This document shows, in pieces, positions 21,000 to 39,376 of a DNA stretch of 64,000 nucleotides. This stretch comes from Candidatus Saccharimonadota bacterium (GTDB taxonomy: Bacteria > Patescibacteriota > Saccharimonadia > Saccharimonadales > Saccharimonadaceae), in assembly GCA_017480035.1 (NCBI GenBank), contig JAFVBJ010000003.1:124001-188000 (forward strand), read 5' to 3'. The notes below the pieces were generated by a model. It saw only the letters and a list, made by a program, of their open reading frames with translations, was not told where the DNA came from and did no database searches. Position 1 is the stretch's first letter, and every line of letters starts with the position of its first letter. The position numbers were made by a program, and so were the translations under genes.

Positions 21000-21054
21000 A
21001 CTATCTCCTTAATATTCTATCTCTATTGTACCATAAATCCCCCCAGTTTAAAAC

Positions 21055-21076
21055 AAAAAGAGCCCCGAGAGGCTCT
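21055..21076 (-). terminator. Terminator after pilin paralog 3
   Basis: Minus-strand AGAGCC/GGCTCT stem, then a T-run. Confidence 0.8.
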
Positions 21077-21089
21077 TATTTTTGTCTCT

Positions 21090-21515: not shown

Positions 21516-21548
21516 TTAGAAAGTTCCTTTGTTTATTACTTTAATATT

Positions 21549-21562
21549 ATTATATCATAAGC
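21549..21562 (-). promoter_or_regulatory. Extended -10 promoter with GCTTATG box, pilin paralog 3
   Basis: Minus-strand GCTTATGATATAAT, 33 bases before the ATG. Confidence 0.78.
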
Positions 21563-21588
21563 ATTCGAGCATGCAAGAGCTTTTCTTC

Positions 21589-22050
21589 CTAGGTCGTCGT
21601 CGGAGCTGGGCTTCCGCCCGTGTTTGCATCCGAATTAATATTACTCGAGACAAACGATACAATCGCCCACGCTAACCCCGCTACAACTAGCGCCACTATC
21701 GCATAGAGAATCATATCTTTCGCTTGCTTAACTTTCCCTGGATCGCCCGCCGAAATCACATATCTTACCCCACCAATCACAATCACAAGCACCGAGATAA
21801 TCCCGACGGCCGCCGCCGCAAGCTCAATAATACTATTTATCCTAAACGGCAGTTGGTCTTTTTTATCACCCGACATCGTACATCCCGCCGCTTGTTTCTG
21901 CGCCTCGTCAAGGTCGCTCGACGAACAGATTTTATTACAATTCGCATCACTCGAACCAGTACATCCCGCCGCAAGAGCCGGCGTGCTCACAAAAAGTCCG
22001 CCAAAAACCATCCCGAGAATAATTACTAAATTTCCTAGAATCTTTTTCAT
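21589..22050 (-). CDS. VirB2-like T4SS pilin, paralog 4
   Basis: 153 residues. Signal peptide ending TPALAAGC, a cysteine-rich exposed region (Cys in GCTGSS, NCNKIC, GCTMSG), two membrane helices, and GGVRYVISAGDPGKVKQAKDMILYAIVALVVAGLAWAIVSFV. Pro/Thr-rich end. GAGGAG before the ATG. Third gene of the 22802-21589 operon. Confidence 0.87.
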   Translation of the reverse strand: MKKILGNLVIILGMVFGGLFVSTPALAAGCTGSSDANCNKICSSSDLDEAQKQAAGCTMSGDKKDQLPFRINSIIELAAAAVGIISVLVIVIGGVRYVISAGDPGKVKQAKDMILYAIVALVVAGLAWAIVSFVSSNINSDANTGGSPAPTTT

Positions 22051-22060
22051 ATTTCTCCTC

Positions 22061-22354
22061 TTAAACTGTTGCTCCTAAAACAAAGTTCGTAATCGCCGCC
22101 GCAATCAGGACCACGACCAGCCCAATCACAGCGAAAACAATCGTCTGACTAGCTTGCTTGATTTTTCCAGGATCGCCTTGTGTCATTGCATAGTTCACCG
22201 CCCCATAAATGATAAACCCGACCGCCACAATCCCCGCAAACGCGTACACCCAGTTCAAAACTGTCTGGATATTAAATTGAGTATTTTGTGGGATGTTTTT
22301 TGTCGCATTATCAATCCCACTACGCCAGTCCCCTAAAAATTTCATCATATCCAT
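22061..22354 (-). CDS. VirB2-like T4SS pilin, paralog 5, without signal peptide
   Basis: 97 residues. Two membrane helices around GAVNYAMTQGDPGKIKQASQTIVFAVIGL; the N-terminus is charged and hydrophilic (MDMMKFLGDWRSGIDNATKN), so no cleavable leader is seen. AAAGGAG upstream supports ATG at 22354 (ATG-GAT-ATG allows 22348). A longer in-frame start at 22384 would run into the preceding gene and is rejected. Second gene of the operon. Confidence 0.82.
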   Translation of the reverse strand: MDMMKFLGDWRSGIDNATKNIPQNTQFNIQTVLNWVYAFAGIVAVGFIIYGAVNYAMTQGDPGKIKQASQTIVFAVIGLVVVLIAAAITNFVLGATV

Positions 22355-22364
22355 AACACTCCTT

Positions 22365-22802
22365 TTATGATGCTGCTCCCCCAATTACAGAAATAATCGT
22401 ATTCACAATCACATTCGCGAGCAGTGCAATTATCATTCCAATCAGCGCATTCACAATAATCGTCTTCGCCTTCGCCACTTTCCCCGGTTCACCATTCGAC
22501 ATAATATAATTAAACCCACCCCAAATCACAAAGATAATCGCCGCATACCCAATCGCGACCGATAAGTCCACTAATATATTAAGCACAATTCGCCAGACGA
22601 ACGAAGGCAAACTATCTCCCTTCGCCTTATCATAATCAATCACACAGTCACCATTTACCGATTTCGTCAATCCTTTATACCACGGGCGAAAACCAATCAC
22701 ATCATCATCGCACGCCGCATATGCCATCCCAGCAGGGAACACCGCAAATGTCGCCGTCACACCCATAAATACTGCCAAAATAAACGAGACTATCTTTTTC
22801 AT
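22365..22802 (-). CDS. VirB2-like T4SS pilin, paralog 6
   Basis: 145 residues; first gene of the pilin operon. Signal peptide with AYA-A cut (PAGMAYAACDD), two cysteines in the exposed region, then GGFNYIMSNGEPGKVAKAKTIIVNALIGMIIALLANVIVNTI. It has S-N-G-E-P-G-K where the others have S-A-G-D-P-G-K. ATG six bases after TATTAT, so the operon message is predicted leaderless. Confidence 0.87.
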   Translation of the reverse strand: MKKIVSFILAVFMGVTATFAVFPAGMAYAACDDDVIGFRPWYKGLTKSVNGDCVIDYDKAKGDSLPSFVWRIVLNILVDLSVAIGYAAIIFVIWGGFNYIMSNGEPGKVAKAKTIIVNALIGMIIALLANVIVNTIISVIGGAAS

Positions 22803-22817: not shown

Positions 22818-22928
22818 TATTTTGCCCTAAAAACACAACTTTTTAACCATAACCATATTACAACATATTTTCACGCCCAAAAATTTCGCCTAACTCCTGT
22901 TTTTAGTATTGACTATTCTGCTTATGTG

Positions 22929-22937
22929 TGATATAAT
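22929..22937 (+). promoter_or_regulatory. Extended -10 promoter of VirB6-like gene
   Basis: TGATATAAT preceded by GCTTATG two bases upstream; 28 bases to the ATG. Divergent from the pilin operon. Confidence 0.78.
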
Positions 22938-22965: not shown

Positions 22966-25900
22966 ATGAAAATATTAGAGAAGATCAAAAGGGCATTAAT
23001 CTTTCCGTTGATTGGAATCATTTTTGCAACTTCCGCTCTCACTTACTCCACCCCTGTTTACGCAGACCCAGTCGATGAACCAGAAACCGGAACTATTGTC
23101 CCGGGCGCACCGGATGAAACGACCGAAACGACTGAAACTAAAACTGAAGAGTCTGAAGAGAAAAAAGACGAGGGAGATAGTGAGAAAACCGAAAACGCTA
23201 CCTGTTATTCACAGGTTGGCGGTCTTGGCTGGCTCGTTTGTCCGGTCATGGCTTTTCTCGCCAAAGGTATCGACACCATCTACGGCGTCATCGAAGATTT
23301 TCTCGTCGTTGAGCCAATCTCAATGGAAAGCGACTCCCCGGTCTACACCATCTGGGTCTACGTCCGTAACATCACCAACATTGTCTTTGTCATCTTTCTC
23401 TTGTTCATTATCTACTCCCAGATTACCGGCTTTGGCATCAGCAACTACGGCATCAAAAAGGCCCTTCCGCGCCTAATTATTGCCGCTATTCTCGTCAACC
23501 TCTCTTATCTTATCTGTGTCGCCGCTGTTGATGCCAGCAACATCATCGGTAAATCTCTCCACGATTTCTTGAGTGGCGTCGCCGAAAACGCCCTCTCATC
23601 TGGCACTGTCACAGCTGACGTTTCCGTCTCGTTCTATGACGTCTTCACCACTATCGCTGCCGGTGGTGTCATCGGCGCTCTCGCAGTCGGTCTCGCCGGT
23701 GGTCCACTCGGCCTCCTTCTTGCACTCATCCCAGTCATTCTCGGTGGTATCATCGCTGTTCTTATCGGTCTTGTCACCATCTCTCTCCGCCAAGCCGTCA
23801 TCATCCTCCTCGTCGCTATCGCCCCACTCGCTTTTGTCGCTTACCTCTTGCCGAACACTGAAAAATGGTTCAAAAAATGGACCGACATGTTCTCCCAGAT
23901 GCTCTTCTTCTATCCGATGTTCAGCCTCCTCTTTGGCGCCTCAAAACTTGCTTCTTGGATTTTCATCTCCAGCGCAAACAGCATGCTCGGTATTATTCTC
24001 GGTCTCGCCGTCCAAGTTCTCCCGCTCATCCTCGCCCTCAGCCTCATGAAAATGTCTGGCACCATCCTCGGCGGTATCAGTAGCGGACTCAGCAAGCTCG
24101 GCAACAAAGCCAACTCCGGCATCCGCGGTTTCACCGACCCATACAAAGACCTCGCTCGCAGCAAGCAGCTCGCTAAAGGCATGCGCCAACCATTCAACCC
24201 GCTTTCCGTCGCTTCTTGGCGTGCCGCTTCCGAAAAACGCAAAGCGAATTTGAAATTCCGCCAAGACCAATATGACAAAACTAACTCTGGTCTTATTTCC
24301 GAGAACACTAACGCTCTCCGTCGCAACAGCCGCATTATCGGCTACGATAAGAACAACCAACCGATTTACACCCAACTCCCGGTCCGCCGTTCTAATAAAT
24401 ACATGAACGCCGAAGCCGAAGCTCGTGAAGTCGATTTGCGCGTCCAAGCCGACAATCAAGCCACCGAAAACGCCTACGGCCAACTCGGCGATTACCAAAA
24501 AGAACACGGTATTCGCTATGGCTCGGCTATCAAGAACGCTTCTCGCATGGGCGGTCATTATGTCGCCCTCCGTACTCAGATGGACGCTAAAGCTAGAAAT
24601 GACGAAGCTGACGAACGCTTCTATAACGAAACTGTGACTAAGGCCGCCGAACGCTACGACCGTGATGACGGCGTCCACCGCGCTGGCGATCTTAAAAACG
24701 TCGAAGCCTACAACCGTATCGTCAACGGCGCTCTCGGTGCAACTGGTTATAACATCAACCAAATCACCGAAGAAGGTCGCCGTCGTGCCGACGAAGCTCG
24801 CGTCAACGTGATTGGCGACGCTTACAGCCGCGCCGAATCTCAACGTGCCGCCAACATTAAACGTTTCGAATCATACATGGACAAACAAGTCACTGCCGAA
24901 GTTCTTCGCCAATACGAAGATATGATTAAATTCGACAACACTGACGGTATGGTCGCTTCCCACAACGTCCTTGCCAAACGTGGCGACTACGACCAAATCG
25001 CTAAACACATGACCGATTATATGAACTCCGGTAAGGTCAAACTCGGCGAAGATATGGCAAACACTCTTGCCATGAACTTCCTCTCAATGAAAGATGCCGC
25101 ACCAGCCCTCGCTCGTCTCGGCAAATTCATGAACATGGAAACCTGGCAATACACTTCCGGCAACCGCCAAACCGCCGAAATCACCATGGAACAATACATT
25201 ACTGGTCGTGTTGAAGGCGACGTCGATAAACATGGCAACGCCTACACCACTAAAATCAAGATGGCTTCCGGTCTTGAAGGTACTAAACTCACCGGCATTG
25301 ACCGTACTGCTTACGGTGTTAACGACGCTATCGTCGCCCAATTCGACATCAGCCAATCACGCTTCGATCATATGACCGAAAACGAACGCCGCGCCGCTAT
25401 CAAATACGCTACCGACGGTCGTCTTGAAATTGAGACTGCAATGATGCCAGCCGAAATCTCCGCTCTCCCAACCTTCGCTTCCGGCTCTGAGCAGATTCGT
25501 TCGATGGTTGGCCACTTGACCGGCACAAAGTTCAACTCAAAGACTGGTCAATGGGAAAACGTCATCCGAGATGGCGCCAACGGCGAAGTCGACCGCGCTA
25601 TCGTCGATTACACCACTTCAACCTATCTCAAATCACTCACTGTCCGTGACCTCATTAATATGAAGACGGACACTTGGAACGGTATCGTTGCTCGCTATTC
25701 TTATGATTATGAAAACAGCGCCGAAGGCCAAGCAGCTCTCGCCAATGTCGACGAAGCTGACCGCAGTCAATTCATTCTCGACAAAGTTCACGAGCGCTTG
25801 CGTGGCGACCTCAAGACTCGTATCGACAAGCTCGCCCAGGGCAACATGAACGTCGATATGATGAAAGAGAAAATCTACGACGCTCTCCAAATCAGTCAAA

Positions 25901-26022
25901 AACGCGAAGAATATTGGAATGCTCGCCGCAAGGGAACTGGCAGAGGCCATACCGACCGCGACCCTCGCCCGCATGACAATATGGACGACCCAGACAATCC
26001 GTTTGAGCCAAGCGATGATTAG
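22966..26022 (+). CDS. VirB6/TrbL-like T4SS membrane protein with long soluble tail
   Basis: 1018 residues. Signal peptide (ends TPVYADP), a Thr/Glu-rich segment (about 35-78), then about seven membrane helices between residues 85 and 380, including the Gly/Ala-rich AGGVIGALAVGLAGGPLGLLLALIPVILGG block typical of VirB6/TrbL inner-membrane channel proteins. From about 400 to the end it is hydrophilic, Arg/Asp/Ala-rich and helical (RASEKRKANLKFRQDQYDK ...). The tail is far longer than in ordinary VirB6. A weak GAGAG ribosome site. Terminator directly after the stop. Confidence 0.82.
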   Translation: MKILEKIKRALIFPLIGIIFATSALTYSTPVYADPVDEPETGTIVPGAPDETTETTETKTEESEEKKDEGDSEKTENATCYSQVGGLGWLVCPVMAFLAKGIDTIYGVIEDFLVVEPISMESDSPVYTIWVYVRNITNIVFVIFLLFIIYSQITGFGISNYGIKKALPRLIIAAILVNLSYLICVAAVDASNIIGKSLHDFLSGVAENALSSGTVTADVSVSFYDVFTTIAAGGVIGALAVGLAGGPLGLLLALIPVILGGIIAVLIGLVTISLRQAVIILLVAIAPLAFVAYLLPNTEKWFKKWTDMFSQMLFFYPMFSLLFGASKLASWIFISSANSMLGIILGLAVQVLPLILALSLMKMSGTILGGISSGLSKLGNKANSGIRGFTDPYKDLARSKQLAKGMRQPFNPLSVASWRAASEKRKANLKFRQDQYDKTNSGLISENTNALRRNSRIIGYDKNNQPIYTQLPVRRSNKYMNAEAEAREVDLRVQADNQATENAYGQLGDYQKEHGIRYGSAIKNASRMGGHYVALRTQMDAKARNDEADERFYNETVTKAAERYDRDDGVHRAGDLKNVEAYNRIVNGALGATGYNINQITEEGRRRADEARVNVIGDAYSRAESQRAANIKRFESYMDKQVTAEVLRQYEDMIKFDNTDGMVASHNVLAKRGDYDQIAKHMTDYMNSGKVKLGEDMANTLAMNFLSMKDAAPALARLGKFMNMETWQYTSGNRQTAEITMEQYITGRVEGDVDKHGNAYTTKIKMASGLEGTKLTGIDRTAYGVNDAIVAQFDISQSRFDHMTENERRAAIKYATDGRLEIETAMMPAEISALPTFASGSEQIRSMVGHLTGTKFNSKTGQWENVIRDGANGEVDRAIVDYTTSTYLKSLTVRDLINMKTDTWNGIVARYSYDYENSAEGQAALANVDEADRSQFILDKVHERLRGDLKTRIDKLAQGNMNVDMMKEKIYDALQISQKREEYWNARRKGTGRGHTDRDPRPHDNMDDPDNPFEPSDD

Positions 26023-26023
26023 C

Positions 26024-26053
26024 AAAAAGCCCCAAAATCCGGGGCTTTTTCTA
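26024..26053 (+). terminator. Terminator after VirB6-like gene
   Basis: 10-bp stem AAAAAGCCCC/GGGGCTTTTT with a 7-base loop. Confidence 0.92.
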
Positions 26054-26074
26054 TATCTTTTTTCATAATGCTTG

Positions 26075-26083
26075 TGATATAAT
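26075..26083 (+). promoter_or_regulatory. Extended -10 promoter of PrgI-VirB4 operon
   Basis: TGATATAAT (upstream GCTTGTG box), ATG ten bases after the hexamer. Confidence 0.78.
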
Positions 26084-26093
26084 ATATACATAT

Positions 26094-27287
26094 ATGGCTC
26101 AATATAAGGTCCCTCAAGATGTTGAGGCAGAAGACAAACTTCTCGGACCATTTACTTTCCGTCAGTTCGTCTATCTCCTTATTGCAGCGGCCGGTATTGC
26201 TGGAGCGTGGGGTCTTTTTCAAATCTTTCCGCTCCTAGGCTTAATCCCACTGCCGTTTGTTTTCTTTTTTGGTATTCTCGCACTCCCGATTAAAAAAGAC
26301 CAGCCAATGGAAACTTATCTCGCTGCCGTCGTCAGTTTCTATCTAAAACCAAATCGCCGTATCTGGACTGCCGGTCAACGTGAATCCACCATTAAAATTA
26401 TCGCTCCAAAGAAAGTTGAAAAATCTCGCACTCGTGACATCACCGAAGACGAAGCTTCACATCGCCTCTCATTCCTCGCCACTATCGTCGACACCGAGGG
26501 CTACGCTATTCGTGGTGATTCTGCTATGAAAGATGAATACGCCGCCGAAGCCGACACCGTCGAAGATGTTCTCGACGCCGATAACCCAGTCATCGACCGC
26601 ATTATCGAACAAGAACAAACTCAACGTAAACAAGAAATCGTTTCTCAGATGCGCACCGCGATGAATCGCACCGACGCTCTCATCGGTTCCACTCCGGTCA
26701 ATCCTGCCACGGTTACCACTGCTCCGGTCCAAAACCCTGTCCCGCTCCAAGCCCCAGGTGCAAATTATAATCCGCAACCAACCACAGTTCCCGTGCAACC
26801 AATGCCACAACAACCTCAAATGCAACCACAGCCTCAACCTGTTTATCAAGCTCCACAGCCGACTCCGGCTCCAATGCCGATGCCGATGCCACAACCGCAG
26901 CCATCCGTCCAACAGCTCACTCAGGCTTCCTTAAACCAAGCTGCCGTAAACCAACAAATGCAAAATCTCGCCAATAATAACTCTTTCAGTATCCAAACTA
27001 TCGCCCAACAAGCAAACCGCATCCAACAACAGTCTAAATTTGAACAAGATTTCATGGACCAAGTCCACACCGACCCGAACGTTCATGCTCCAGCAACCAA
27101 CAACACAATGGTAACAAACAACGAAGCTGGTCTCACTGCCCCGACTTTCACTCCGATGTCCATCCCACTCCCACACGAAGTCGAACCAGGCCAACTCTAT
27201 CGCCCAATCGAAAATGACGAAGCAGCAAAGCCTCAAAATGACCGTCCTGACCTCTATGGCCCGCCAACCGCAATATTTAGTTCATAA
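26094..27287 (+). CDS. PrgI-family (VirB3-like) T4SS protein with Pro/Gln-rich extension
   Basis: The first about 110 residues are a PrgI domain: MAQYKVPQDVEAEDKLLGPFTFRQF, two membrane helices (about 22-65), then PMETYLAAVVSFYLKPNRRIW. PrgI is the Gram-positive counterpart of VirB3, which docks VirB4 at the membrane. The rest, to 397 residues, is a charged helix and a Pro/Gln/Met-rich low-complexity region (about 200-290) ending in IFSS. Predicted near-leaderless start. The VirB4 genes follow. Confidence 0.88.
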   Translation: MAQYKVPQDVEAEDKLLGPFTFRQFVYLLIAAAGIAGAWGLFQIFPLLGLIPLPFVFFFGILALPIKKDQPMETYLAAVVSFYLKPNRRIWTAGQRESTIKIIAPKKVEKSRTRDITEDEASHRLSFLATIVDTEGYAIRGDSAMKDEYAAEADTVEDVLDADNPVIDRIIEQEQTQRKQEIVSQMRTAMNRTDALIGSTPVNPATVTTAPVQNPVPLQAPGANYNPQPTTVPVQPMPQQPQMQPQPQPVYQAPQPTPAPMPMPMPQPQPSVQQLTQASLNQAAVNQQMQNLANNNSFSIQTIAQQANRIQQQSKFEQDFMDQVHTDPNVHAPATNNTMVTNNEAGLTAPTFTPMSIPLPHEVEPGQLYRPIENDEAAKPQNDRPDLYGPPTAIFSS

Positions 27288-27314
27288 ACCGATGAAGATT
27301 AAGGAGAAAAATAG

Positions 27315-28109
27315 ATGAATCCACAACAAAACCAACCCCAAAACGTCGCCATGGCGATTCCAGAAGCGCCAGCCGGTCAGGAACATCCGGTCCCAGACAG
27401 CAACACCGCGACTCAAACCACTCTCTTGATTTCCGAGCTTCGCGATGGTCTCGTCATCATGAAAGATGGTTCTTTCCGTGCCGTTGTCGCTTGTAAATCG
27501 ATCAACTTTGACCTCATGTCCGAAACCGAACGTGAAGCTGTTGAGTACTCATATCAAGGATTCATCAACTCACTCAACTTCACCACCCAAATCATGATTC
27601 GCTCCCAACGCGTCGACATCGGTCCATATCTCGAACGTCTCTCCGACATCCGTCGTAACACCGACAATATGCTCCTCGGCGTTTTGATGGACGACTACAT
27701 CAACTTCATCGACATTCTCTCCCAAGAAGCAAACATTATGGATAAATCTTTCTTCATCGTCATTCCATATTACACTTCAAACGACGCCGAAAAGGCCTCA
27801 ACCCAAGTCAAAGGTATTTTCTCCGGAATCTTCGGTAGCAAGGAACCGCTCGTCACAAAAATCGACCGTGCAACTTACGACAAAGCTGTCAAAGAGATAA
27901 ATGACCGTGTCGAAAGCGTTATTTCCGGACTTTTCCAAATGGGAATCCACTCCGTCCGTCTAAACACCAAAGAACTTTCTGAACTCTTCTACAACGTCAA
28001 TAACCCAGACACTGCCGTCCGTGAACCGTTCATCGATTTCTCAAAAATGGCAACCACATATGTAAAGAAAGGCGCAGCCCCTAGCCAAGCTCAAGGAGGA
28101 CAACAATAA
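27315..28109 (+). CDS. VirB4/TraC N-terminal-domain-like protein
   Basis: 264 residues, no signal peptide. After a Pro/Gln-rich start, the region from about residue 35 (TTLLISELRDGLVIMKDGSFRAVVACKSINF) to about 235 (MGIHSVRLNTKELSELFYNV) matches the N-terminal, non-ATPase part of TraC/VirB4 proteins. It lacks Walker motifs. The next gene supplies the ATPase, so VirB4 function appears split over two polypeptides. AAGGAG before the ATG; its stop overlaps the next ATG (TAATG). Confidence 0.82.
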   Translation: MNPQQNQPQNVAMAIPEAPAGQEHPVPDSNTATQTTLLISELRDGLVIMKDGSFRAVVACKSINFDLMSETEREAVEYSYQGFINSLNFTTQIMIRSQRVDIGPYLERLSDIRRNTDNMLLGVLMDDYINFIDILSQEANIMDKSFFIVIPYYTSNDAEKASTQVKGIFSGIFGSKEPLVTKIDRATYDKAVKEINDRVESVISGLFQMGIHSVRLNTKELSELFYNVNNPDTAVREPFIDFSKMATTYVKKGAAPSQAQGGQQ

Positions 28110-29938
28110 TGGCAAAGAAAAAGAAACTCACCGCAGCTGAGCTTGCCGCACAAGCTCAAACCATGGAAGACGCAGAAATTCAGCGTGCTTTTGAACAAGG
28201 TATCACCACTCTCCGCGACCTCATTTCGCCAAGTTCCATCGAAATCCATTCAAGCTATTTCCGTCTCGGCACAAAATACGGCCGCACTATGTATGTCTAT
28301 GGCTATCCTCGCACTCTTTATACCGGTTGGCTTTCACCTCTGATTAACATCGACGAAGTACTCGACATTTCCATGTATATTTATCCAGTCGACACTGGCG
28401 TCGTTATGAAAAACCTCCGCAAAAAAGTCACCCAGCTCGAAGCTGACATCTCGTTAAACGCCGAGAAAGGTCGTATTAGAAACCCAGAAACCGATGCCGC
28501 TATCCAAGACGCCGAGGAACTTCGTGACGCACTCCAAGTCGGTGCCGAAAAATTCTTCCGCTTCGGCCTCTACGTCACAATCTGGGCCGATTCGCTTGAT
28601 GAACTAAACTTCGTCCAACACAAAATCGAAACTATTTTCGGCCAACAAATGGTCTTCTCAAAAGTTGCAACTTCTCAACAAGAGCAGGGAATGAACACCA
28701 CGATGCCAATGTGTACTGACCAGATGCAAATCCGCCGCAACATGAACACCGGCGCAATTTCCACATCTTTCCCATTCACTTCCGCCGACCTCACCCAAGA
28801 GCGCGGTATTCTCTATGGCATCAACATGCACAACAACGGTCTCGTCATCTTCGACCGTTTCACACTTGAAAACGCCAACATGGTCGTCTTCGCTAAATCT
28901 GGTGCTGGTAAATCCTTCACCGTGAAGCTTGAAGCTCTTCGTTCGATGATGATGGGCGCAGAAATTCTTATTATCGACCCTGAAAACGAATATCAACGTC
29001 TCTGCGACGCTGTCGGTGGTTCTTACGTTCGTCTTTCTCTTAACTCTGACGTACGTATTAACCCGTTCGATCTCCCGAAAGTCATCGACACCGAAGACGC
29101 TTCCGACGCTCTCCGTGCCAACCTCGTGACGCTTCATGGCCTCTTCCGCTTAATGCTCGGTGGTACTCAAATCGGTCCAAACGGCCAAGCCGCTCCGGCT
29201 CTCACTCCAAACGAAGAAGCCGACCTCGACCAAGCTCTTATCGATACTTACGCTCGTGCTGGTATTACTTCCGATCCACTCACTCACCAATCCACCCCTC
29301 CAACCATCATCAACCTTTATGATACCTTGCTTCATATGGGTGGAACCGGTCCGCAACTCGCACAGCGCCTCAGAAAATACACTACCGGTACTTTCGCCGG
29401 CATCTTCAGCCAACAATCAAATATCGACATCAACAATCCAATGGTCGTCTTCAACATCCGCGACCTCGAAGACGAACTTCGCCCAGTCGCGATGTACATC
29501 GTCCTTTCGCACATCTGGAACGTTGTTCGTGCCGACCAAAGAAAACGCCTGCTCATCGTTGATGAGGCCTGGCAGCTTATGAAATACGACGACTCCGCAA
29601 ACTTCCTCTTCTCCCTCGCAAAGCGTGCTCGTAAATATTATCTTGGTCTCACCACCATTACTCAGGACGTTGAAGATTTCATGTCCAGTAAAATGGGTCG
29701 TGCCATCGTCCACAACTCCTCGCTCCAGATTCTCTTGAAGCAATCCGCTGCTGCTGTCGACGTTCTCTCCGACGTCTTCAAACTCACCGAAGAAGAGAAG
29801 AAACGTCTTGCCAACTTCCCAGTCGGTCAAGGCCTCTTCTTTGCCGGTCAAAACCACGTCCACATCCAAGTCATCGCCTCAGAAACTGAGGAAGGTCTCA
29901 TCACAACAAACCCAGCAGCACGAGCAAACCAGCAATAG
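28109..29938 (+). CDS. virB4: VirB4-family T4SS ATPase
   Basis: 609 residues; the ATPase that drives pilus assembly and transfer. N-terminal about 240 residues: TraC-like domain (RDLISPSSIEIHSSYFRLGTKYGRTMYVYGYPR). Walker A FAKSGAGKSFTVK (about 263-275), EILIIDPENEYQRL, Walker B RLLIVDEAWQLMK (about 483-495), then a QDVEDFMSSKMGRAIVHNSS motif. Translationally coupled to the preceding gene. No VirD4 coupling ATPase or VirB11 is seen in the window. Confidence 0.94.
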   Translation: MAKKKKLTAAELAAQAQTMEDAEIQRAFEQGITTLRDLISPSSIEIHSSYFRLGTKYGRTMYVYGYPRTLYTGWLSPLINIDEVLDISMYIYPVDTGVVMKNLRKKVTQLEADISLNAEKGRIRNPETDAAIQDAEELRDALQVGAEKFFRFGLYVTIWADSLDELNFVQHKIETIFGQQMVFSKVATSQQEQGMNTTMPMCTDQMQIRRNMNTGAISTSFPFTSADLTQERGILYGINMHNNGLVIFDRFTLENANMVVFAKSGAGKSFTVKLEALRSMMMGAEILIIDPENEYQRLCDAVGGSYVRLSLNSDVRINPFDLPKVIDTEDASDALRANLVTLHGLFRLMLGGTQIGPNGQAAPALTPNEEADLDQALIDTYARAGITSDPLTHQSTPPTIINLYDTLLHMGGTGPQLAQRLRKYTTGTFAGIFSQQSNIDINNPMVVFNIRDLEDELRPVAMYIVLSHIWNVVRADQRKRLLIVDEAWQLMKYDDSANFLFSLAKRARKYYLGLTTITQDVEDFMSSKMGRAIVHNSSLQILLKQSAAAVDVLSDVFKLTEEEKKRLANFPVGQGLFFAGQNHVHIQVIASETEEGLITTNPAARANQQ

Positions 29939-29967
29939 CGCTTGCGCTTTCAAAAATAGCAAAAATA

Positions 29968-29976
29968 TGCTAAAAT
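29968..29976 (+). promoter_or_regulatory. Extended -10 promoter of the 902-residue gene
   Basis: TGCTAAAAT; transcription would start near 29983, inside the hairpin 29972-30002. Confidence 0.65.
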
Positions 29977-30002
29977 AAGAGACATAAAAGGTCTCTTATT
30001 TT
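29972..30002 (+). terminator. Hairpin ending at a start codon; likely terminator of virB4 operon
   Basis: Perfect 12-bp stem (29972-29983 with 29991-30002) and 7-base loop. The U-rich 3' arm abuts the ATG at 30003, and its 5' arm overlaps the -10 of the next gene. Confidence 0.6.
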
Positions 30003-32711
30003 ATGGTTAAAAGCGCATATTTCGGCAAGGATTCCATCACCCCTGACTTTTTGCGTCATGTCGAAGAAAATGCCAAAAAAACCAAACCCGTAGAAGACGA
30101 CCAAAAAGAGTCCGCCACCGACGCCGCCAAAAACTCTGAAAAAGATTTCAAATTCACCGGCTCCGGAAAATCTCTCGCCGACGCCGTCCGCGCCGCTCGC
30201 AAGAAAAAACCAAAATTACACTCCATCAAAAAAGCCACTCCTGTTTTTCTCATCACCAGCTTCATTTTTGTCGCAATTTTCTTCATGTTCTCGATGGTCA
30301 GCAACCTCGGCAACCAAATCGAAACTCTTATCACTCGTGCGACCGACACCATGTTCGGTTCTTATTCCGAAAACACCATCCGCATCACCGAAGAACTTCT
30401 TGCCGGCAAGCGTGGAGAATTCCCAGAATATTTTAAAGATCGTCTACAAGAGCAGGGCATTACTGTCGCCGGTGGCGAAGGTGGCTACACTCTCGATTGG
30501 TCCGGTATAAAAATCGGCTCCAGCACTTTCCGCGAAGTCTACTCTAACGACGTTAATTTCCGCGAGGCTTACACAAAAGCCAAACGTGGCCGCACCAGCA
30601 ACTTCTACGACATGAGCGCCAATTTTGCCTTTACCCGTCTCGGTATCTCACGCAACCTCTATCGTAGCTATGACCAAACCGGCGATTCCGAAGCCGACAA
30701 CGCCGCCTATAAAAAGACCGAATCCGACCTCTTCGAAGATGCCACTTCCGGCTCACTCAACACTGTCATTGAACAACAGAAAACTGACGAAAACGGCAAT
30801 CCGATGACTGATGATGACGGCAATCCTATCATGGAACGTATCAAATCCGGCGAAGACATTGGTAGTTCCCAAGGTGGCGATTCCAGAGTCAAAGCCAAAG
30901 GCTACCTCACCGACATCGCCGGCCGTGTCGCTGACACCACTAGCCTCGCTTGCGCCGCCTTAAAAGTCGCAAACATGGTTTCCGTAACTGTCGCCGCCGC
31001 CGAAATCTACGAAGCCATCAACTATTTCTTATCCAACGCCGAAAACATTAGTAAAACCAAAGCCGGAGACGGCAACAACGCTGCCCAAAGTTATCTCTTG
31101 AACTTCCTTAATGAATCCACGACGACGACTTACACCGACGTCAAAACTGGCGAAGAAAAAGAAATTTCCGGCGCCCCAATCGAAGCCGAAGGTTTCGCCA
31201 ATGTCCTCGCCGGCACTAATCCTGACACCTCAAAAACCAGCAACTATTCCGTCGAATCTGCTTTTGTCGCCTCTGGTTTTGCTATTGGACTTTCCGCCGT
31301 CAACAACAAAGTTTGTGGCGGCCTCCGCGCCGTCGGCGCCACTGTCAGCCTCGCTGTCGGACTTCTCGGTGGCGGCATCGTCAAGTCTATCGCCACTCTC
31401 GCCAAGACCACTTTTATCAACTTCGCTATGCAACAGGGAATTGTTGCAATTCTAGGTGTCTTAATTCCAAAAATCGCCCAATCCCTCTTTGAAAATTCCG
31501 CCGAATCTCTCGCTAGTATCCCAGCCGGAGAAACCTTCGTTAAAGGCGCCGCCCTCGGCAACAAAAAAGTCGCTCGTGGCACTTCCGGCCAAATGCTTGC
31601 CAGCAAAGAAGTCGCAGCCGCTTACTCAAAACAAACAAAAATCGCCAACGCTTATGAATCCGAACTTGGCCGCAAAAATCGCAGCCCATTCGACACCTCC
31701 TCCCCGGATACTTTCCTCGGCCGAATCGTCTCAAAACTCGCCGTCATTTCCGGCAGCAGCACGCTCTTTAGCTCTCTCTCAAACATCAGTAGTGTCGTCG
31801 GCAACACCTTCGCCAGCCTTGTCGGCACCACTGCGACCAAAACTTTCGCAAACAGCATCACCGACCCAGATTACACTGTCGATTATGAACTCGCCGGCAC
31901 CGATTACTCAGAAGTTTTCGCCGATGAATCCGACTGTGAATATTTGACCGACATCGGCGCCGCTTGTGGCATGTATGGCGAAGAAATTACCGCCACCGAC
32001 CCAAATGTCATGAAAGTTAGCTCCGACGACCCGAAATATCTCGCCGTTCTCGAGGAAAACGTCCGCAAACTCGACGACGGCACTTATGAAGTCATCCCAA
32101 ACTCCCTCCTCGCCAACAAAATCATGTATTGCGATGAACGCGACAGCCCATTCGGCGTCTACGACAGCAACATCGCCAGCGCTTTCGAAACTAGCCTTGG
32201 TTTCATGGACAACATCCCAGTCTTAAACGACGTTGTCGATCTCGTCAATGCCGTCGAAGACATGGATCCAGAAACCGAAGGTTGGGCGCGCGGCACTTTC
32301 TGTGTCATGAACCCAGCCACCAACTACCACTACGAAGACCTCATTTATCTCCAACATTTCACCGAAGACCAACGTATCGCTGTCCAAATTGAACTCGACG
32401 AAGTTCGCAAAGAAGACGGCAGTGTAAAATCTCCAACTCTCGCCTACAAAGAAGCTTGGTATGCAAAAAATCCTATCGACACCACCGAAGCTGGTCTTCT
32501 TGCCCGCTACACCGGCACCACGAAAAAAGAAGCCGAAGAGTTTCTCGCTCTCCTCGAATACTACGAATACCTCTCAAATTACACCCCGCCAGCCGAAGAA
32601 AAAGAGGAATATAAACTTTCTCTTGAATCATCCAACTTTGAAAATATCCTTGGTTATATCCTTCATGAAACAGAATTTATCAACCTTCGAAATAGGAGTT
32701 TTGCCGCATGA
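30003..32711 (+). CDS. Large T4SS-locus membrane protein, function unknown
   Basis: 902 residues, not recognised. Hydrophilic N-terminus (about 1-75, Lys/Asp-rich, KSLADAVRAARKKKPK), one strong membrane helix (about 78-100), a large outer region, and hydrophobic stretches near 310-335 and 425-500 (GFAIGLSAVNNKVCGGLRAVGATVSLAVGLLGGG). A C-terminal region with several Cys follows (SDCEYLTDIGAACGMYG, IMYCDERD, RGTFCVMNP). Its length and place before two wall hydrolases suggest a structural part of the transfer channel, perhaps in the VirB8/VirB10 position, but this is inference. An AAAAGG lies 13 bases before the ATG; overlaps the next gene by ATGA. Confidence 0.8.
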   Translation: MVKSAYFGKDSITPDFLRHVEENAKKTKPVEDDQKESATDAAKNSEKDFKFTGSGKSLADAVRAARKKKPKLHSIKKATPVFLITSFIFVAIFFMFSMVSNLGNQIETLITRATDTMFGSYSENTIRITEELLAGKRGEFPEYFKDRLQEQGITVAGGEGGYTLDWSGIKIGSSTFREVYSNDVNFREAYTKAKRGRTSNFYDMSANFAFTRLGISRNLYRSYDQTGDSEADNAAYKKTESDLFEDATSGSLNTVIEQQKTDENGNPMTDDDGNPIMERIKSGEDIGSSQGGDSRVKAKGYLTDIAGRVADTTSLACAALKVANMVSVTVAAAEIYEAINYFLSNAENISKTKAGDGNNAAQSYLLNFLNESTTTTYTDVKTGEEKEISGAPIEAEGFANVLAGTNPDTSKTSNYSVESAFVASGFAIGLSAVNNKVCGGLRAVGATVSLAVGLLGGGIVKSIATLAKTTFINFAMQQGIVAILGVLIPKIAQSLFENSAESLASIPAGETFVKGAALGNKKVARGTSGQMLASKEVAAAYSKQTKIANAYESELGRKNRSPFDTSSPDTFLGRIVSKLAVISGSSTLFSSLSNISSVVGNTFASLVGTTATKTFANSITDPDYTVDYELAGTDYSEVFADESDCEYLTDIGAACGMYGEEITATDPNVMKVSSDDPKYLAVLEENVRKLDDGTYEVIPNSLLANKIMYCDERDSPFGVYDSNIASAFETSLGFMDNIPVLNDVVDLVNAVEDMDPETEGWARGTFCVMNPATNYHYEDLIYLQHFTEDQRIAVQIELDEVRKEDGSVKSPTLAYKEAWYAKNPIDTTEAGLLARYTGTTKKEAEEFLALLEYYEYLSNYTPPAEEKEEYKLSLESSNFENILGYILHETEFINLRNRSFAA

Positions 32712-33982
32712 AAAATATCCTAAAACGCCTATTTTACCTCTGTGCTGTTGTGATTTTTACAACACTCTCAATCGTCACACCAGTTTCCGCCTTAAAAGAA
32801 AAAACTTGGGATATGTACGACCTCAACTACATTTATTATTACGATCCCGAAGGCGAAGAATGTACCCCAACTTCCGGCTCAGTCGTTTCTGGAGATAACA
32901 CTCTCTATAACGGCGACCCCGTTCTCTCTACCTCCTCACTCCAAAAAATCGCTGAAAACAAACCTTTCTACGAAAAATCAGCCAACAAATATAATATCCC
33001 ATGGCAAATCATCGCCACTCTCCACTACCGCGAAGCTGGTTTAAATCGTTATAATCCAAGCAACGGTCAAGGTGCTTACCAACTTTATTCTTACACCGGC
33101 GGCGGCAAAAATGGCAACGCCTTCCTCCCAGCCGGCCCAATTTCTGACGACGAATTTCAGCGCCAAACCGACATCGTCGCAAAACTCATCCGCGACAATT
33201 ATGGTGCCGGCTTAAATCTAAATACTGACGACGACGTCAAACTTTTCTTCTTCCGTTATAACGGCACCGCCAGCTCTTATATCTCCCAAGCTCGTGACCT
33301 CGGTTTTTCCGAAGCCGAAGCTCGTCGCGGCGAAGGCTCGCCATACGTCATGAATCTCGCTGATGAAAAACGTGACAGTCGCAAAAACCCGAATTGGAAA
33401 CAAATCACTCATGACGGCGGCGCTATGACCGACCCAGCCAATCTCCAACCTGGCGCATTTATCATCTTTTCATCCCTTGGCGGCAGCTCTGGTTTCTCGA
33501 GCTGTACTAATTCCGGCGCCGGTAACGGCGACTTAAATAAAACTGCTCTCGAACTTGCTTGGCCAGAACACGGTCACGGCTTAAACGCTCGCGACACCTA
33601 TAAAACTGCTCTCGCTGACGTCGGCCTCAGCAACTATGGTGATTATTACGCCCGCATCGGCGCTTCTTGCGATGCTTTCGTCGCCACCGTCTTCCGCTAT
33701 TCCGGCGTCGATCCAAACTTCGTTTGTTGTGGTGTTTCAAATCACGGCGCAACCTGGAATTATGTCGTAAACTCCGGCAAATTCGTCGAAGTTCCAAACA
33801 ACGCCAGCTCCTTGAAGCCAGGCGACATCCGCTTAAGCAACGGCCATATCGAAATGTACGTCGAAGTCGATGGCGTCGGTAAAATCGCCAGCGCTTCCTA
33901 TGGCTCCCGCACCGGCGAAATCGGTCCGTTCTACGACAACTCTGCAACATTTAAAGCCTATCGGTGGAAAGGGAATCAATAA
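32708..33982 (+). CDS. Secreted bifunctional wall hydrolase: lysozyme-like plus NlpC/P60-type domain
   Basis: 424 residues. Signal peptide (KNILKRLFYLCAVVIFTTLSIVTPVSALK). The domain at about 85-230 is a lysozyme/transglycosylase-like fold (KYNIPWQIIATLHYREAG, then NGQGAYQL). The C-terminal domain (about 290-420) has the NlpC/P60 or CHAP pattern: ASCDAFVATVFRYSGVDP with the nucleophile Cys (about 320) and LSNGHIEMYVEV with the His (about 380). It would cut glycan and peptide parts of peptidoglycan, the VirB1-like role in a T4SS. Couples to its neighbours by ATGA and TAATG overlaps. Confidence 0.85.
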   Translation: MKNILKRLFYLCAVVIFTTLSIVTPVSALKEKTWDMYDLNYIYYYDPEGEECTPTSGSVVSGDNTLYNGDPVLSTSSLQKIAENKPFYEKSANKYNIPWQIIATLHYREAGLNRYNPSNGQGAYQLYSYTGGGKNGNAFLPAGPISDDEFQRQTDIVAKLIRDNYGAGLNLNTDDDVKLFFFRYNGTASSYISQARDLGFSEAEARRGEGSPYVMNLADEKRDSRKNPNWKQITHDGGAMTDPANLQPGAFIIFSSLGGSSGFSSCTNSGAGNGDLNKTALELAWPEHGHGLNARDTYKTALADVGLSNYGDYYARIGASCDAFVATVFRYSGVDPNFVCCGVSNHGATWNYVVNSGKFVEVPNNASSLKPGDIRLSNGHIEMYVEVDGVGKIASASYGSRTGEIGPFYDNSATFKAYRWKGNQ

Positions 33983-34686
33983 TGGCAGGCAAAAACTTAT
34001 TTAGATTCGATTCAAACAAACGACAGAAGAAAATCTTGAAATATTCACTAATTTTCATGATTGCCCTTTTTCTCGGTGCACTAATTTACTCCACTATTGA
34101 AATGATTATTAACCACGACAAAACCGCCACAATCGAAATCCTTATCGCTCCGTCCGACGCTAAAGTCGAAATCGATGGTCGCACCTTCCCAACCAAATCC
34201 ACCATCAAAATCCGCCCCGGCACTTATGCTGTTAAAATCGAAAAAGACGGTTTCATCTCTTTTAACGGCTCAATCAAAGCTAACGCCGACGAAACCAGCT
34301 ATCTTTACGAATTTTTGAATGAAGAAAACGAAAACGGCACTTATTACAAAGACAACGAACAAGATTCACTTCGCGCCCAACAAATTTCCGACAAAAAAGC
34401 CGATCTCTTCCACGAGAATTACAACGGTACCGACCAAATCTGGAACGTTACGCCATACGACGATTATGCTTCTGGCTACAAAATCTGGGCCGAAAAGGGA
34501 AGCAACGAAAGCAACCTCCCTTCCGTTTCTGGAAATACCAACTCCGACCAAATCACCATCAACATCTATCTCTACACTTGTTCTGACGACCGCCTCGCAA
34601 AACTCAAACAATCCGCCCTTGATTATCTCGAAGAAAAGAAAATCAAAATCGAAAATTACACCATCAAATACTCAAATTGCAGTTAA
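33982..34686 (+). CDS. Membrane-anchored PEGA-like domain protein
   Basis: 234 residues. Basic N-terminus (SNKRQKKILKY), one membrane helix (about 22-44), then a PEGA-like beta domain (about 52-115: ATIEILIAPSDAKVEIDGRTF, KIRPGTYAVKIEKDGFISF). A second alpha/beta domain ends with YLYTCSDDRLAKLKQSALDYLEEKKI. PEGA domains occur in surface and envelope proteins. The in-frame ATG at 33964 lies inside the upstream gene; ATG 33982 has AAGGGA nearby and overlaps the stop as TAATG. Confidence 0.83.
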   Translation: MAGKNLFRFDSNKRQKKILKYSLIFMIALFLGALIYSTIEMIINHDKTATIEILIAPSDAKVEIDGRTFPTKSTIKIRPGTYAVKIEKDGFISFNGSIKANADETSYLYEFLNEENENGTYYKDNEQDSLRAQQISDKKADLFHENYNGTDQIWNVTPYDDYASGYKIWAEKGSNESNLPSVSGNTNSDQITINIYLYTCSDDRLAKLKQSALDYLEEKKIKIENYTIKYSNCS

Positions 34687-34722
34687 TTTTCTCCGTTTTC
34701 ACTACATTTTCCATTCCGTTTA

Positions 34723-34731
34723 TGCTAAAAT
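34723..34731 (+). promoter_or_regulatory. Extended -10 promoter of trimodular hydrolase gene
   Basis: GTTTATGCTAAAAT with the ATG eight bases after the hexamer. Confidence 0.72.
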
Positions 34732-34739
34732 AAAATTAT

Positions 34740-36827
34740 ATGAAGGTTAAACTTTTTTTGAAAAGATTTTTTAGAAATTTTTCGTATTATTTTGCAACTT
34801 TTCTCATCATCTTAAACGGTGGGCTTCTCCTTCCTACTCCGGTTTACGCTAAAGTTGATCTCCCGAATGGTCGTGACGACGAATTCGGCGAAAACAACAT
34901 CGTATTCTACAACCCAGAGGACAAACCTGCTGAAAAAAAATGCACCTCAACCAGTGGCAAATGTGATATTAAAGGCGACACAAAAGACGAGAAACTCTGG
35001 TCTGGTATTCGCGGCTACGGTTTCAGTCCGGAACAAACCGCTGCATTGATGGGCAACTTCGCTCATGAAGGCGGCACCCCAACCACCCAAGAGTACGCTT
35101 ACTCTACTGCTCGCAATAAAGGCTGTAAAACCATGGAAGGAAATCCATACACAATCCACACCACCACAAACGAACACCATTCTTCTTGTATGCAGTCAGT
35201 TTATAGCCATTATTCCGCCGGCAAACCTGTCGCCGGAATTGGCCTCGGTTTCGTACAATGGACTGCAGAAAGCCGTCGCGAAGGCTACCTCTCAAAGCTC
35301 GACGAATTAGGTCTAAAAGACACTTATTTTGAAGGTGACGCCTATAAAGAATACGGCTCTCTCACCGACGACCAACTAAAATCAAAAATTGAAAGCACAA
35401 CTGGTTCCGACGCAGACTATTGGGATCTCTGGTGCGCTGCAATCGCCTACATCGACGAGGAACTCCATAGCGGTTCATATTCGGCCTTCTTTAGTATGTC
35501 GGATGTTGGGGAAATGGCCGGGTATATCTCCGCTTCATATGAAGTTTGTAATGGTTGCCAAAAAGGTGCATCATCTTACAACGCCCGTGTTTCCTCCGCC
35601 ATACAATACTACCAAGATTACCTGAACGGAAAATTCGACTCTGTAGAAACTACTACATCATCATCAGAATCCGCCAAAGCCGACACAGACGGCGACCTCG
35701 CAACCACCGACGCGCCAGAAGGTGAAGATAACTCCGAAACCGGAAAAAATGTCATCATCATCGGCGATTCAATCACTGTCCGTTCCGAATCCGAAATCAA
35801 AGCTCTCCTCCCAGACGTCACAATCAACGCCGAAGTTGGTCGAAACTGGGGAACCGGCCAATCAATTCTCGATAGTTTATCAAACAAACCTGGAATTATC
35901 GTTTTCGCTCTCGGCTCAAACAACACCGGTGGTGTTAGCAAATCCGATATAGATAAAGTTCTCTCAAGCGCCAGTGGCTCAACCGTCATCTTCGCCACAA
36001 ACTATTCCCTTAAACTTCACACCACTGCCTATGAAAAAACTAATACCGCCCTAAAATCATCAGGAGCAGTTATCGCAGACTGGGCTGCTGCCGTATCATC
36101 CGACCCGACAAAATACGTAGCCGACGAATCATCTATTGATGTCCATCCAACCATCCCAGAAGGCACAAAACTCTTTGCAAAAACCCTCTATGAAGCCATC
36201 ACAAAAGGCACCCTAGATAACAACGAACGAAACCATTGTGGTGGCGATGGCGAAACAACTAAAACAAAAATCGGTGACTACGATTACGCCTTCCCACTCC
36301 AAGGCGCAACTCAATCAAACTACCTAAACCCAGGTTGGCCTGGCCCGGCAGGTGATTCAGTCCTATCGAGAGTTCCATGTGGTAGTGGCACTTGTCACCA
36401 CGATTACAACGCCGTCGACCTCGGTATTAACGTAGGAAAAGTCAAAGCTTCCGACCATCCAGGAGACGGTCTTAGCGATATGTATTATTATTCAACCGGC
36501 GCGAAAGTTGTTGCGCTCGTCGGCGGAACAATCAGTTATTATTCAACATACACCAATAAAGTTCCATCTTCCCACCATAGCCAATGTGGTCAATTAATAT
36601 TAAAAGGTGAGGACGGCAAAGATTATTGGTTTGGTCATATGAATTACCCTGGTAATGTCAGTGGCGGCGACACTGTCACTGCCGGACAAGTTCTCGGCGA
36701 AGTTGGCGTCCCGCAATGCGCTCAAGTTACCCAAGCTCACCTCCACATCAACGTTTCTCCACAATCCGCCAACGACCACTACATTATCGACGTCATTGAT
36801 AAACTTTGGGATAGCTTACCAAAATAG
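34740..36827 (+). CDS. Secreted three-domain wall hydrolase: phage-type lysozyme, SGNH esterase, M23 endopeptidase
   Basis: 695 residues. Signal peptide (ends TPVYAKV). Domain 1 (about 80-300): tail-lysozyme type, IRGYGFSPEQTAALMGNFAHEGG with the catalytic-type Glu, then IGLGFVQWT. Domain 2 (about 335-500): SGNH hydrolase, IIIGDSITVRSE (Ser), VFALGSNN and a late DVHPT (Asp/His); such domains remove O-acetyl groups. Domain 3 (about 515-690): M23 peptidase, with HHDYNAVDLG and HLHIN as zinc ligands. Together these attack glycan, acetyl groups and cross-links. Very short predicted leader. Confidence 0.88.
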   Translation: MKVKLFLKRFFRNFSYYFATFLIILNGGLLLPTPVYAKVDLPNGRDDEFGENNIVFYNPEDKPAEKKCTSTSGKCDIKGDTKDEKLWSGIRGYGFSPEQTAALMGNFAHEGGTPTTQEYAYSTARNKGCKTMEGNPYTIHTTTNEHHSSCMQSVYSHYSAGKPVAGIGLGFVQWTAESRREGYLSKLDELGLKDTYFEGDAYKEYGSLTDDQLKSKIESTTGSDADYWDLWCAAIAYIDEELHSGSYSAFFSMSDVGEMAGYISASYEVCNGCQKGASSYNARVSSAIQYYQDYLNGKFDSVETTTSSSESAKADTDGDLATTDAPEGEDNSETGKNVIIIGDSITVRSESEIKALLPDVTINAEVGRNWGTGQSILDSLSNKPGIIVFALGSNNTGGVSKSDIDKVLSSASGSTVIFATNYSLKLHTTAYEKTNTALKSSGAVIADWAAAVSSDPTKYVADESSIDVHPTIPEGTKLFAKTLYEAITKGTLDNNERNHCGGDGETTKTKIGDYDYAFPLQGATQSNYLNPGWPGPAGDSVLSRVPCGSGTCHHDYNAVDLGINVGKVKASDHPGDGLSDMYYYSTGAKVVALVGGTISYYSTYTNKVPSSHHSQCGQLILKGEDGKDYWFGHMNYPGNVSGGDTVTAGQVLGEVGVPQCAQVTQAHLHINVSPQSANDHYIIDVIDKLWDSLPK

Positions 36828-36834
36828 GAGTTTT

Positions 36835-37491
36835 ATGGAAGAAAATAATTTTAATTTCAATAACAAGACCAGCGAAGACTTAAAAAATAAGCGCATTTTT
36901 ATCGCCGGAGTTATTGTTTTCGCTATTATCGTTCTCATTATAATTATCATTTTCATCGTCTCAAAATCTCGCGAACAACATCATACCGGCGAGTCTCTCC
37001 CTGAATACGCCACTTCCTACGAAAACCGCTATTTACTTCGTTCAAAACTCGACTCAAACCCAGCAATCGAAGTCACAAGTCATATCGACCAAATCATCAC
37101 AAACCAAGGCGAAATAGATTCCGCCCCACAAGAAAATAACTCCACAACCTCAAACTACAATACTTTAACTATCACAATTTCCGAAGATTCTTTCAAAACC
37201 ACCGATGACGGCAAAGATTATACTTCCACTTTTGACTTATCAGTATCAGATGGCAGAAAATATTCAATCATAGTTTTCGAAGATGGCAGTTTCGGCCGTT
37301 TCTATCTCGGTACCATTATCAAACGCACCGACCGAGAAACTAAAGATTATGTTTTCTTTGATTACAATGAAGGCGCAGAATATTATGGCCAAGATTTAGA
37401 CTACAAAGAACTTCTCGAAAATTGGCTTAAAACTCAATCTGTTAAAAACCCAGAAATAGACTACTCTTCTCTTATCATTGAAGAAAAATAG
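36835..37491 (+). CDS. Single-pass membrane protein, function unknown
   Basis: 218 residues. Asn-rich N-terminus, one membrane helix (about 22-44, IAGVIVFAIIVLIIIIIFIV), then a soluble extracellular domain (YNTLTITISEDSF ... YSIIVFEDGSFGRFYLGTII). No family recognised. ATG at 36835 is preceded by TAGGAG; a much longer in-frame start at 36655 overlaps the hydrolase gene and is rejected. It follows the trimodular hydrolase by seven bases, so co-transcribed and possibly a partner or immunity-like protein; the role is inferred only from position. Confidence 0.8.
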   Translation: MEENNFNFNNKTSEDLKNKRIFIAGVIVFAIIVLIIIIIFIVSKSREQHHTGESLPEYATSYENRYLLRSKLDSNPAIEVTSHIDQIITNQGEIDSAPQENNSTTSNYNTLTITISEDSFKTTDDGKDYTSTFDLSVSDGRKYSIIVFEDGSFGRFYLGTIIKRTDRETKDYVFFDYNEGAEYYGQDLDYKELLENWLKTQSVKNPEIDYSSLIIEEK

Positions 37492-38321: not shown

Positions 38322-38347
38322 AAAGCCCCGCACTCGCGGGGCTTTTT
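38322..38347. terminator. Bidirectional terminator between lipoprotein gene and recF
   Basis: 10-bp stem AAAGCCCCGC/GCGGGGCTTT with a 4-base loop and T-run. Confidence 0.92.
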
Positions 38348-39375: not shown

Positions 39376-39376
39376 T

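Follow-up and report, generated by a model that had tools for sequence, protein, structure and literature searches.

A Patescibacteria-type secretion locus with a nearly fixed VirB4 core and repeatedly exchanged, putatively VirB1-type wall hydrolases

Type IV secretion systems (T4SSs) occur in several classes of Patescibacteria, where, according to a recent survey (Quinonero-Coronel et al. 2025, PMC12102498), they often lie near dnaA and combine TrsD, PrgI, VirB6, and pilin arrays with rare relaxases and remote coupling proteins. The same survey places peptidase and lysozyme genes, essential in strain ML1, just downstream of virB4. For the ML1 system itself (SEML1_0006-0019, Southlakia epibionticum), the original report (Wang et al. 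2023, PMC10633639) finds it essential for epibiotic growth by transposon sequencing, describes pilins, a likeness to Gram-positive conjugation, and no recognisable coupling or relaxase proteins, and suggests protein export. A 2024 review (PMC11665869) describes the role of the Saccharibacterial T4SS as completely unknown, and a 2025 review (PMC12857230) speculates on uptake or signal exchange via the pilus. Here we analyzed a T4SS locus and its associated wall hydrolases in a 64-kb stretch of a Saccharibacterial genome (G000:C3:124001-188000, referred to here as the window; the genome comprises 772.8 kb in three contigs). A first-pass annotation had proposed a candidate new machine, but the locus is another member of the published Patescibacteria T4SS, related to the monoderm MPF-FATA conjugation machines and essential in ML1 (PMC10633639, PMC12102498).

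What we regard as new is the exchange of enzymes against a near-fixed core, the pairing of hydrolases with single-pass partner proteins, the coupling of a 902-residue membrane protein (U902) to the hydrolase, and the occurrence of U902-VirB6 pairs outside T4SS loci; PMC10633639 and PMC12102498, in the parts consulted, describe neither this coupling nor these pairs, nor do they give a rate of enzyme exchange. We consider it probable that the VirB1-type enzymes are held at the channel and open the epibiont's own wall, possibly that of the host too. The genes concerned are as follows (window coordinates):

22966-26022, + strand: P0001, VirB6/TrbL-like polytopic protein with a long cytoplasmic tail (sub-threshold TrbL match, hydrophobic segments, synteny)
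26094-27287, + strand: P0002, VirB3/PrgI (PF12666, 3.5e-12; two transmembrane segments)
27315-28109, + strand: P0003, TrsD, a separate N-terminal part of VirB4 (NF041427, 1.3e-6, which falls under that model's own cut-off)
28109-29938, + strand: P0004, VirB4 ATPase (NF045971 and PDB 4ag5)
30003-32711, + strand: P0005, U902, 902-aa membrane protein (transmembrane segment 81-99; AlphaFold2 model)
32708-33982, + strand: P0006, candidate VirB1-like hydrolase (signal peptide; lysozyme-superfamily-like at ~69-215; CHAP/NlpC-like at ~280-404)
33964-34686, + strand: P0007, partner protein with a PEGA domain (PF08308, 4.4e-6; likely start ATG at 33982)
34740-36827, + strand: P0008, candidate VirB1-like hydrolase (Phage_lysozyme2 84-293, SGNH 334-487, M23 584-674)
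36655-37491, + strand: P0009, single-pass protein (transmembrane segment 81-99; true start probably past the P0008 stop)

The VirB6-, VirB3-, and VirB4-like genes, the 902-residue protein, the two hydrolases, and the PEGA protein between them all lie where the first-pass annotation had put them, and it was right to propose that this Saccharibacterium has a T4SS equipped with wall hydrolases of its own. The homologous ML1 locus is essential for growth on the host (PMC10633639).

Both hydrolases begin with signal-peptide-like N termini of the Sec type; a scan recovered the N-terminal hydrophobic segment in P0006, the corresponding segment of P0008 falling under the scan threshold. P0006 itself has no Pfam match, its domains being assigned via relatives with Glucosaminidase or CHAP matches, and its subfamily profile gave chance-level matches only against the PDB. 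Its catalytic letters E109, C321, and H380 are present, with E109 invariant and C321 and H380 conserved at 90% or more in alignment A5. P0008 matches PF18013 (Phage_lysozyme2, 3.3e-11) and PF01551 (M23, 2e-7), and its SGNH domain matches the solved acyltransferases 5ufy and 5ug1 (1e-6), which we take to be pneumococcal OatA, a peptidoglycan O-acetylating enzyme. A PHROGs search of P0008 returned M23/endolysin matches only, and a hydrolase profile searched against the PDB retrieved 3csq (5e-7), a wall enzyme from the phi29 tail, as well as the NlpC-type hydrolase 7cfl. With E110, the SGNH residues S344/D467/H469, and the M23 motifs HHDYNAVD and HLH also present, the lysozyme, NlpC/P60-type, SGNH, and M23 activities named in the first-pass annotation have their catalytic letters in place across the two proteins. 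An exported lysozyme/SLT domain joined to CHAP or LytM with catalytic residues is the VirB1/PrgK-type combination, found here in both proteins, in P0006 by homology only, and on these sequence features both would be Sec-exported wall enzymes of the VirB1 type.

To place the locus among its relatives, we compared 80 loci found by a VirB4 scan (VirB4 identity of 84 to 98%). The pilin-VirB6-VirB3-TrsD-VirB4 block is near-universal among them, the VirB6-like gene being syntenic in 77. Median identity to the window proteins, a comparison in which locus choice favours VirB4, was 87% for VirB4, 73% for TrsD, 47% for VirB3, and 39% for VirB6, against 41% for P0006, 33% for P0008, 32% for U902, and 29% for the partner; the local controls DnaN, RecF, DnaA, and ComF gave 59, 56, 50, and 38%, respectively. 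We rejected low hydrolase identity as the sole argument for an arms race, given that ComF is as divergent, that DnaA stands at 50%, and that VirB4 is the outlier. Since low identity alone proves little, we relied on change of fold class instead. Among 64 hydrolase genes, whose architectures were assigned with profiles built on the hydrolase set itself, the catalytic domains were Phage_lysozyme2 (33), CHAP (18), Glucosaminidase (17), NlpC/P60 (7), C39 (6), GDSL/SGNH (up to 7), M23 (2), and M15 (1). On a VirB4+TrsD tree, the first hydrolase switches fold class at least 17 times, counted over the 53 loci whose hydrolase was assigned to a class, and the full architecture switches 29 times, compared with one change of locus site (origin or dnaJ) and four of U902 adjacency; these counts, which cover the T4SS hydrolases, are inflated by weak support for 27 of the 77 inner branches of what is a quick tree among close relatives, and the fold classes may be remote relatives of each other. 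In L036, which among relatives with a complete locus is the nearest (VirB4 identity of 98%), P0008 lacks the SGNH domain. Such swapping of enzyme folds against a nearly fixed VirB4 core lends indirect support to a host-facing role. In genomes without a hydrolase beside VirB4, a homologue was found elsewhere in 16 of the 16 searched; hydrolase presence is therefore general and only adjacency varies.

A second regularity is that a single-pass partner gene directly follows the hydrolase gene in 54 of the 64 cases, lying within 30 nucleotides of it or overlapping it, often as TAATG, in 53 of these 54. The partners measure ~140 to 350 amino acids with one transmembrane segment at the start, and 25 of 34 PEGA-type partners have a PEGA match. 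In the window, the AlphaFold2 model of P0007 (predicted local distance difference test [pLDDT] of 87) shows a transmembrane helix at 19-51 (the single segment being 24-42 in a hydrophobicity scan), a PEGA sandwich at 55-121, and a C-terminal alpha/beta part; the sandwich matches 5aq0 (VIA Z score of 7.6, root mean square deviation of 1.8 over 67 residues), this being a common fold. For a VirB8/NTF2-like fold, Foldseek and VIA list PEGA/transthyretin-like matches only, covering just the PEGA part of P0007, and partner profile searches, including the PDB, gave no VirB8 and nothing convincing. Homologues of P0009 likewise come after hydrolases in L036, L041, and L113. In pCF10, the PrgK hydrolase binds the single-pass VirB8-like PrgL, which is thought to position PrgK at the channel (PMC11323569), and a similar logic may hold here.

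U902 had been called unknown, and this stands insofar as profile searches of Pfam, NCBIfam, and PHROGs found no family for it and its AlphaFold2 model (pLDDT of 67.7) found no PDB match (best VIA Z score of 3.5), but it has a paralogue of 1,056 amino acids in its own genome (G000:C2:~104417-107587; L035:6418-9588) with no second VirB4 adjoining. Its gene overlaps that of P0006 by four bases (ATGA), an arrangement shared by 16 of 22 loci. Pairs of VirB6-like and U902 genes without an adjoining VirB4 occur in relatives (L125:2473-7956, L130:2058-7806, and L131:2978-7989, with VirB6-like E values of 2e-60, 5e-63, and 3e-53, respectively), and it is possible that these are alternative translocon modules. 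The genome of the window also encodes a VirB6-like paralogue of 1,139 amino acids (L168:4954-8373, G000:C3), preceded by single-pass proteins and with no VirB4 or U902 nearby. Given its translational coupling to the hydrolase and its pairing with VirB6-like genes elsewhere, U902 is probably, as judged from these gene arrangements, a translocon or wall-spanning part.

A U902 form of ~750 amino acids sits directly beside recF at the origin in genomes where the T4SS lies elsewhere (L013, L014, L019, L020, L022, L028, L029, and L031) and is the relic of one locus relocation. U902 as cargo or as a come-and-go cassette accessory was rejected, given its retention in 22 of 23 genomes of the genus and the persistence of the ~750-aa form beside recF after the T4SS had left the origin; it was not found in 16 genomes from other families of the order. 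U902 is a multisite family in this genus with recurring chromosomal sites. We also observed U902 paralogues of ~870 to 1,070 amino acids beside a pair that by eye is pheS-pheT-like (L011, L012, L024, L126, L127, L128, and L132), and others of this size beside a vWA-like protein and a P-type-ATPase-like gene (L015 and L018).

The remaining features of the locus are the following (window coordinates):

18769-19197, + strand: VirB2-like T4SS pilin outside the array (PF18895 at 18967-19155, that is, G000:C3:142967-143155; E value of 1.2e-12)
20580-20999, - strand: VirB2-like pilin (PF18895, 8.9e-14)
21090-21515, - strand: VirB2-like pilin (PF18895, 1.1e-13; TrbC/VirB2, 4.3e-5)
21589-22050, - strand: VirB2-like pilin (PF18895, 1.8e-13)
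22061-22384, - strand: VirB2-like pilin (PF18895, 9.2e-11; true start probably an internal ATG)
22365-22802, - strand: VirB2-like pilin (PF18895, 7e-9)
22909-22937, + strand: promoter-like site preceding the operon (11 of 12 consensus bases, with TG; consensus match only)
38347-42074, - strand: recF, dnaN, dnaA (sequence and homologues)

The five tandem pilin genes (20580-22802) are divergent from the VirB6-VirB4 operon, and such an array is a feature of the Patescibacteria T4SS. The first-pass annotation had overlooked the array and the separate pilin, as well as TrsD and the recF-dnaN-dnaA genes. A PF18895 search counts six pilins in the window and seven in the genome (the seventh at C3:80590), and with these, TrsD, and a coupling protein elsewhere, the T4SS is not minimal, as had been supposed. 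VirB4 is assigned above cut-off to the CD1110 family (NCBIfam NF045971, 2e-112) and matches a solved VirB4 (PDB 4ag5, 1.3e-47), and its start overlaps the TrsD stop (TAATG). Two marks of the MPF-FATA/Patescibacteria T4SS are thereby present, a VirB4 of Gram-positive type and a PrgI-type VirB3 beside it. For P0001, the TrbL/VirB6 match in Pfam lies under the cut-off (E value of 0.0058), and topology scan and synteny agree with VirB6. A terminator-like hairpin lies between VirB6 and VirB3 (26024-26050) and might tune the level of VirB6 relative to that of the other operon products. The operon heads towards recF-dnaN-dnaA, and the T4SS locus adjoins a putative replication origin; origin-side placement was seen in 30 of the 70 loci with a visible boundary.

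In the mechanism that we favour, VirB4 with TrsD, VirB3, and VirB6, the identified components, would form a membrane translocon, and a pilus made from the array of VirB2-like pilins may complement it. The single-pass protein encoded next to each hydrolase would probably keep that hydrolase at the channel, in the way supposed for PrgL and PrgK. Going by domain family and the intact catalytic letters, glycan would be cut by the lysozyme-type domains and peptide by the CHAP and M23 domains, while the SGNH domain may act on or remove lysozyme-blocking O-acetyl groups. P0006 and P0008 would open the epibiont's own wall locally, making room for the channel and the pilus to be assembled and to cross it, the own wall being the default target because this is the accepted VirB1/PrgK role. 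In a second step, the host wall may also be thinned, since export would bring the hydrolases to where the two cells touch; the host wall is a plausible second target, favoured by catalytic-domain exchange, the likeness to 3csq, and two precedents (PMC7176660 and PMC8080830). Several points weigh against the mechanism as a whole: hydrolases are not always beside VirB4, so that the complex need not be a fixed one; the partner fold gave no VirB8 match, its fold matches covering just the PEGA part; family support for VirB6 amounts to one sub-threshold match; and the repeated change of enzyme class exceeds the needs of a purely self-directed VirB1.

A rival model, in line with the first-pass annotation, has the hydrolases working chiefly in trans: in the manner of a phage tail lysozyme, they would degrade the host wall where the cells meet and so allow the T4SS to reach the host membrane. 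At least 17 changes of fold class and 29 of full architecture, against one of locus site, would fit such a model, as would the variety of catalytic families (lysozyme, glucosaminidase, CHAP, NlpC, C39, SGNH, M23, and M15), the absence of the P0008 SGNH domain from L036, and the homology to 3csq, and there are precedents in the donor-delivered hydrolases that aid Bacillus subtilis nanotube entry into recipients (PMC7176660) and in the host-wall attack proposed for Vampirococcus (PMC8080830). However, the PrgK muramidase domain is also phage-tail-like (PMC11323569), yet PrgK is a donor-envelope T4SS component, and rapid domain turnover may be general among exported enzymes. We consider action mainly in trans possible but rather unlikely. 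Also possible but rather unlikely, in our view, is a reading in which the pairs of hydrolase and partner serve as an exchangeable drill on an otherwise fixed T4SS, with lysozyme, glucosaminidase, amidase, and esterase domains swapped in each lineage to suit the wall of its present host and with U902 and VirB6 as the docking base. The tight pairing, the diversity, and the tandem duplication of pairs also recall antibacterial effector/immunity pairs delivered by the T4SS, and PMC8262851 describes T4SS-killing effector loci that likewise carry adjacent immunity genes. Sec signal peptides instead of a cytosolic T4SS signal, a PEGA stalk whose conservation in 25 of 34 partners is more scaffold-like, and the little that an obligate epibiont has to gain from host lysis make this explanation very improbable.

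The least probable explanation, in our estimate, is that the T4SS still conjugates DNA and mobilises elements such as the one upstream. The first-pass annotation had held that conjugation was not the obvious purpose, given that it noticed no relaxase, VirD4, or VirB11 in the window. None was noticed there, but the genome encodes a VirD4-like coupling protein of 1,055 amino acids on a contig other than that of the T4SS locus (G000:C2:87449-90616; TrwB_AAD_bind, 6.5e-7, and TraG-D_C, 3.4e-5, both over cut-off), and the argument from a missing VirD4 fails genome-wide. The relaxase families PF03432, PF08751, and PF01076 had no match in the genome, MOBC, MOBM, and Rep_trans not being part of the search. 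The argument from relaxases is in turn weakened by a small integrated element 3.6 kb before the window (G000:C3:115955-120432; L170:3956-8433), which encodes an HUH-type Rep (HTH and YIKK motifs) with an SF3-type helicase domain, an FtsK/SpoIIIE-like ATPase (6e-19), and a large serine recombinase, and which, from this gene content, is possibly mobilisable, at least occasionally. An HUH Rep alone may, however, be just a replication protein, and the coupling gene lies far from the T4SS locus; ML1 does not require its counterpart of that gene (PMC12102498). The conclusion that the T4SS is probably not primarily a conjugation machine stands. Elsewhere on contig C2 (L004:1-2940, G000:C2:80000-82939), we observed a reverse-transcriptase-like gene (L004:1458-2576) flanked by two similar stretches (L004:3-419 and L004:2635-2940), one Asn-rich where the other has Tyr/Ser, an arrangement that resembles the variable and template repeats of a diversity-generating retroelement.

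If the pattern of fixed core and exchanged enzymes reflects fit to the host wall, it would offer a direct test of how epibionts gain access to what the host contains, and host range could be approached from sequence; if the exchangeable-drill reading were true, the enzyme set would predict or limit host range. The search for the missing wall-spanning parts of the machine also has two defined targets in U902 and the partner family.

The nearest characterised equivalents of P0006 and P0008 are PrgK, TraG, and Orf14, which are VirB1 enzymes of the donor envelope, and the gene order in pCF10 is VirB3-VirB4-VirB1-VirB8. The pCF10 genes PrgI-PrgJ-PrgK-PrgL of Enterococcus faecalis (MPF-FATA) share with the window a VirB3, a VirB4, a multidomain hydrolase, and a single-pass partner. 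PrgK comprises LytM, a phage-tail-lysozyme-like muramidase, and CHAP, and is bound by PrgL (PMC11323569); P0006 and P0008 jointly carry these kinds of domains (lysozyme/muramidase, CHAP, and LytM/M23). In the window, however, two secreted proteins divide the domains between them, SGNH is added, pilins are present, and the partner has a PEGA domain where a VirB8 fold would be expected from PrgL. The lysozyme-type domain is also shared with phi29 gp13 (3csq; hydrolase profile E value of 5e-7), a tail wall-degrading enzyme, but gp13 is a phage structural protein, whereas the window hydrolases are chromosomal and predicted to be Sec-exported. The T4SSs of ML1 and the other Patescibacteria (PMC10633639, PMC12102498) have in common with the window locus the pilin array, VirB6, PrgI, TrsD, VirB4, the peptidase and lysozyme genes just downstream of virB4, the lack of a recognised relaxase, and a remote coupling protein; the exact hydrolase architectures and their partners differ.

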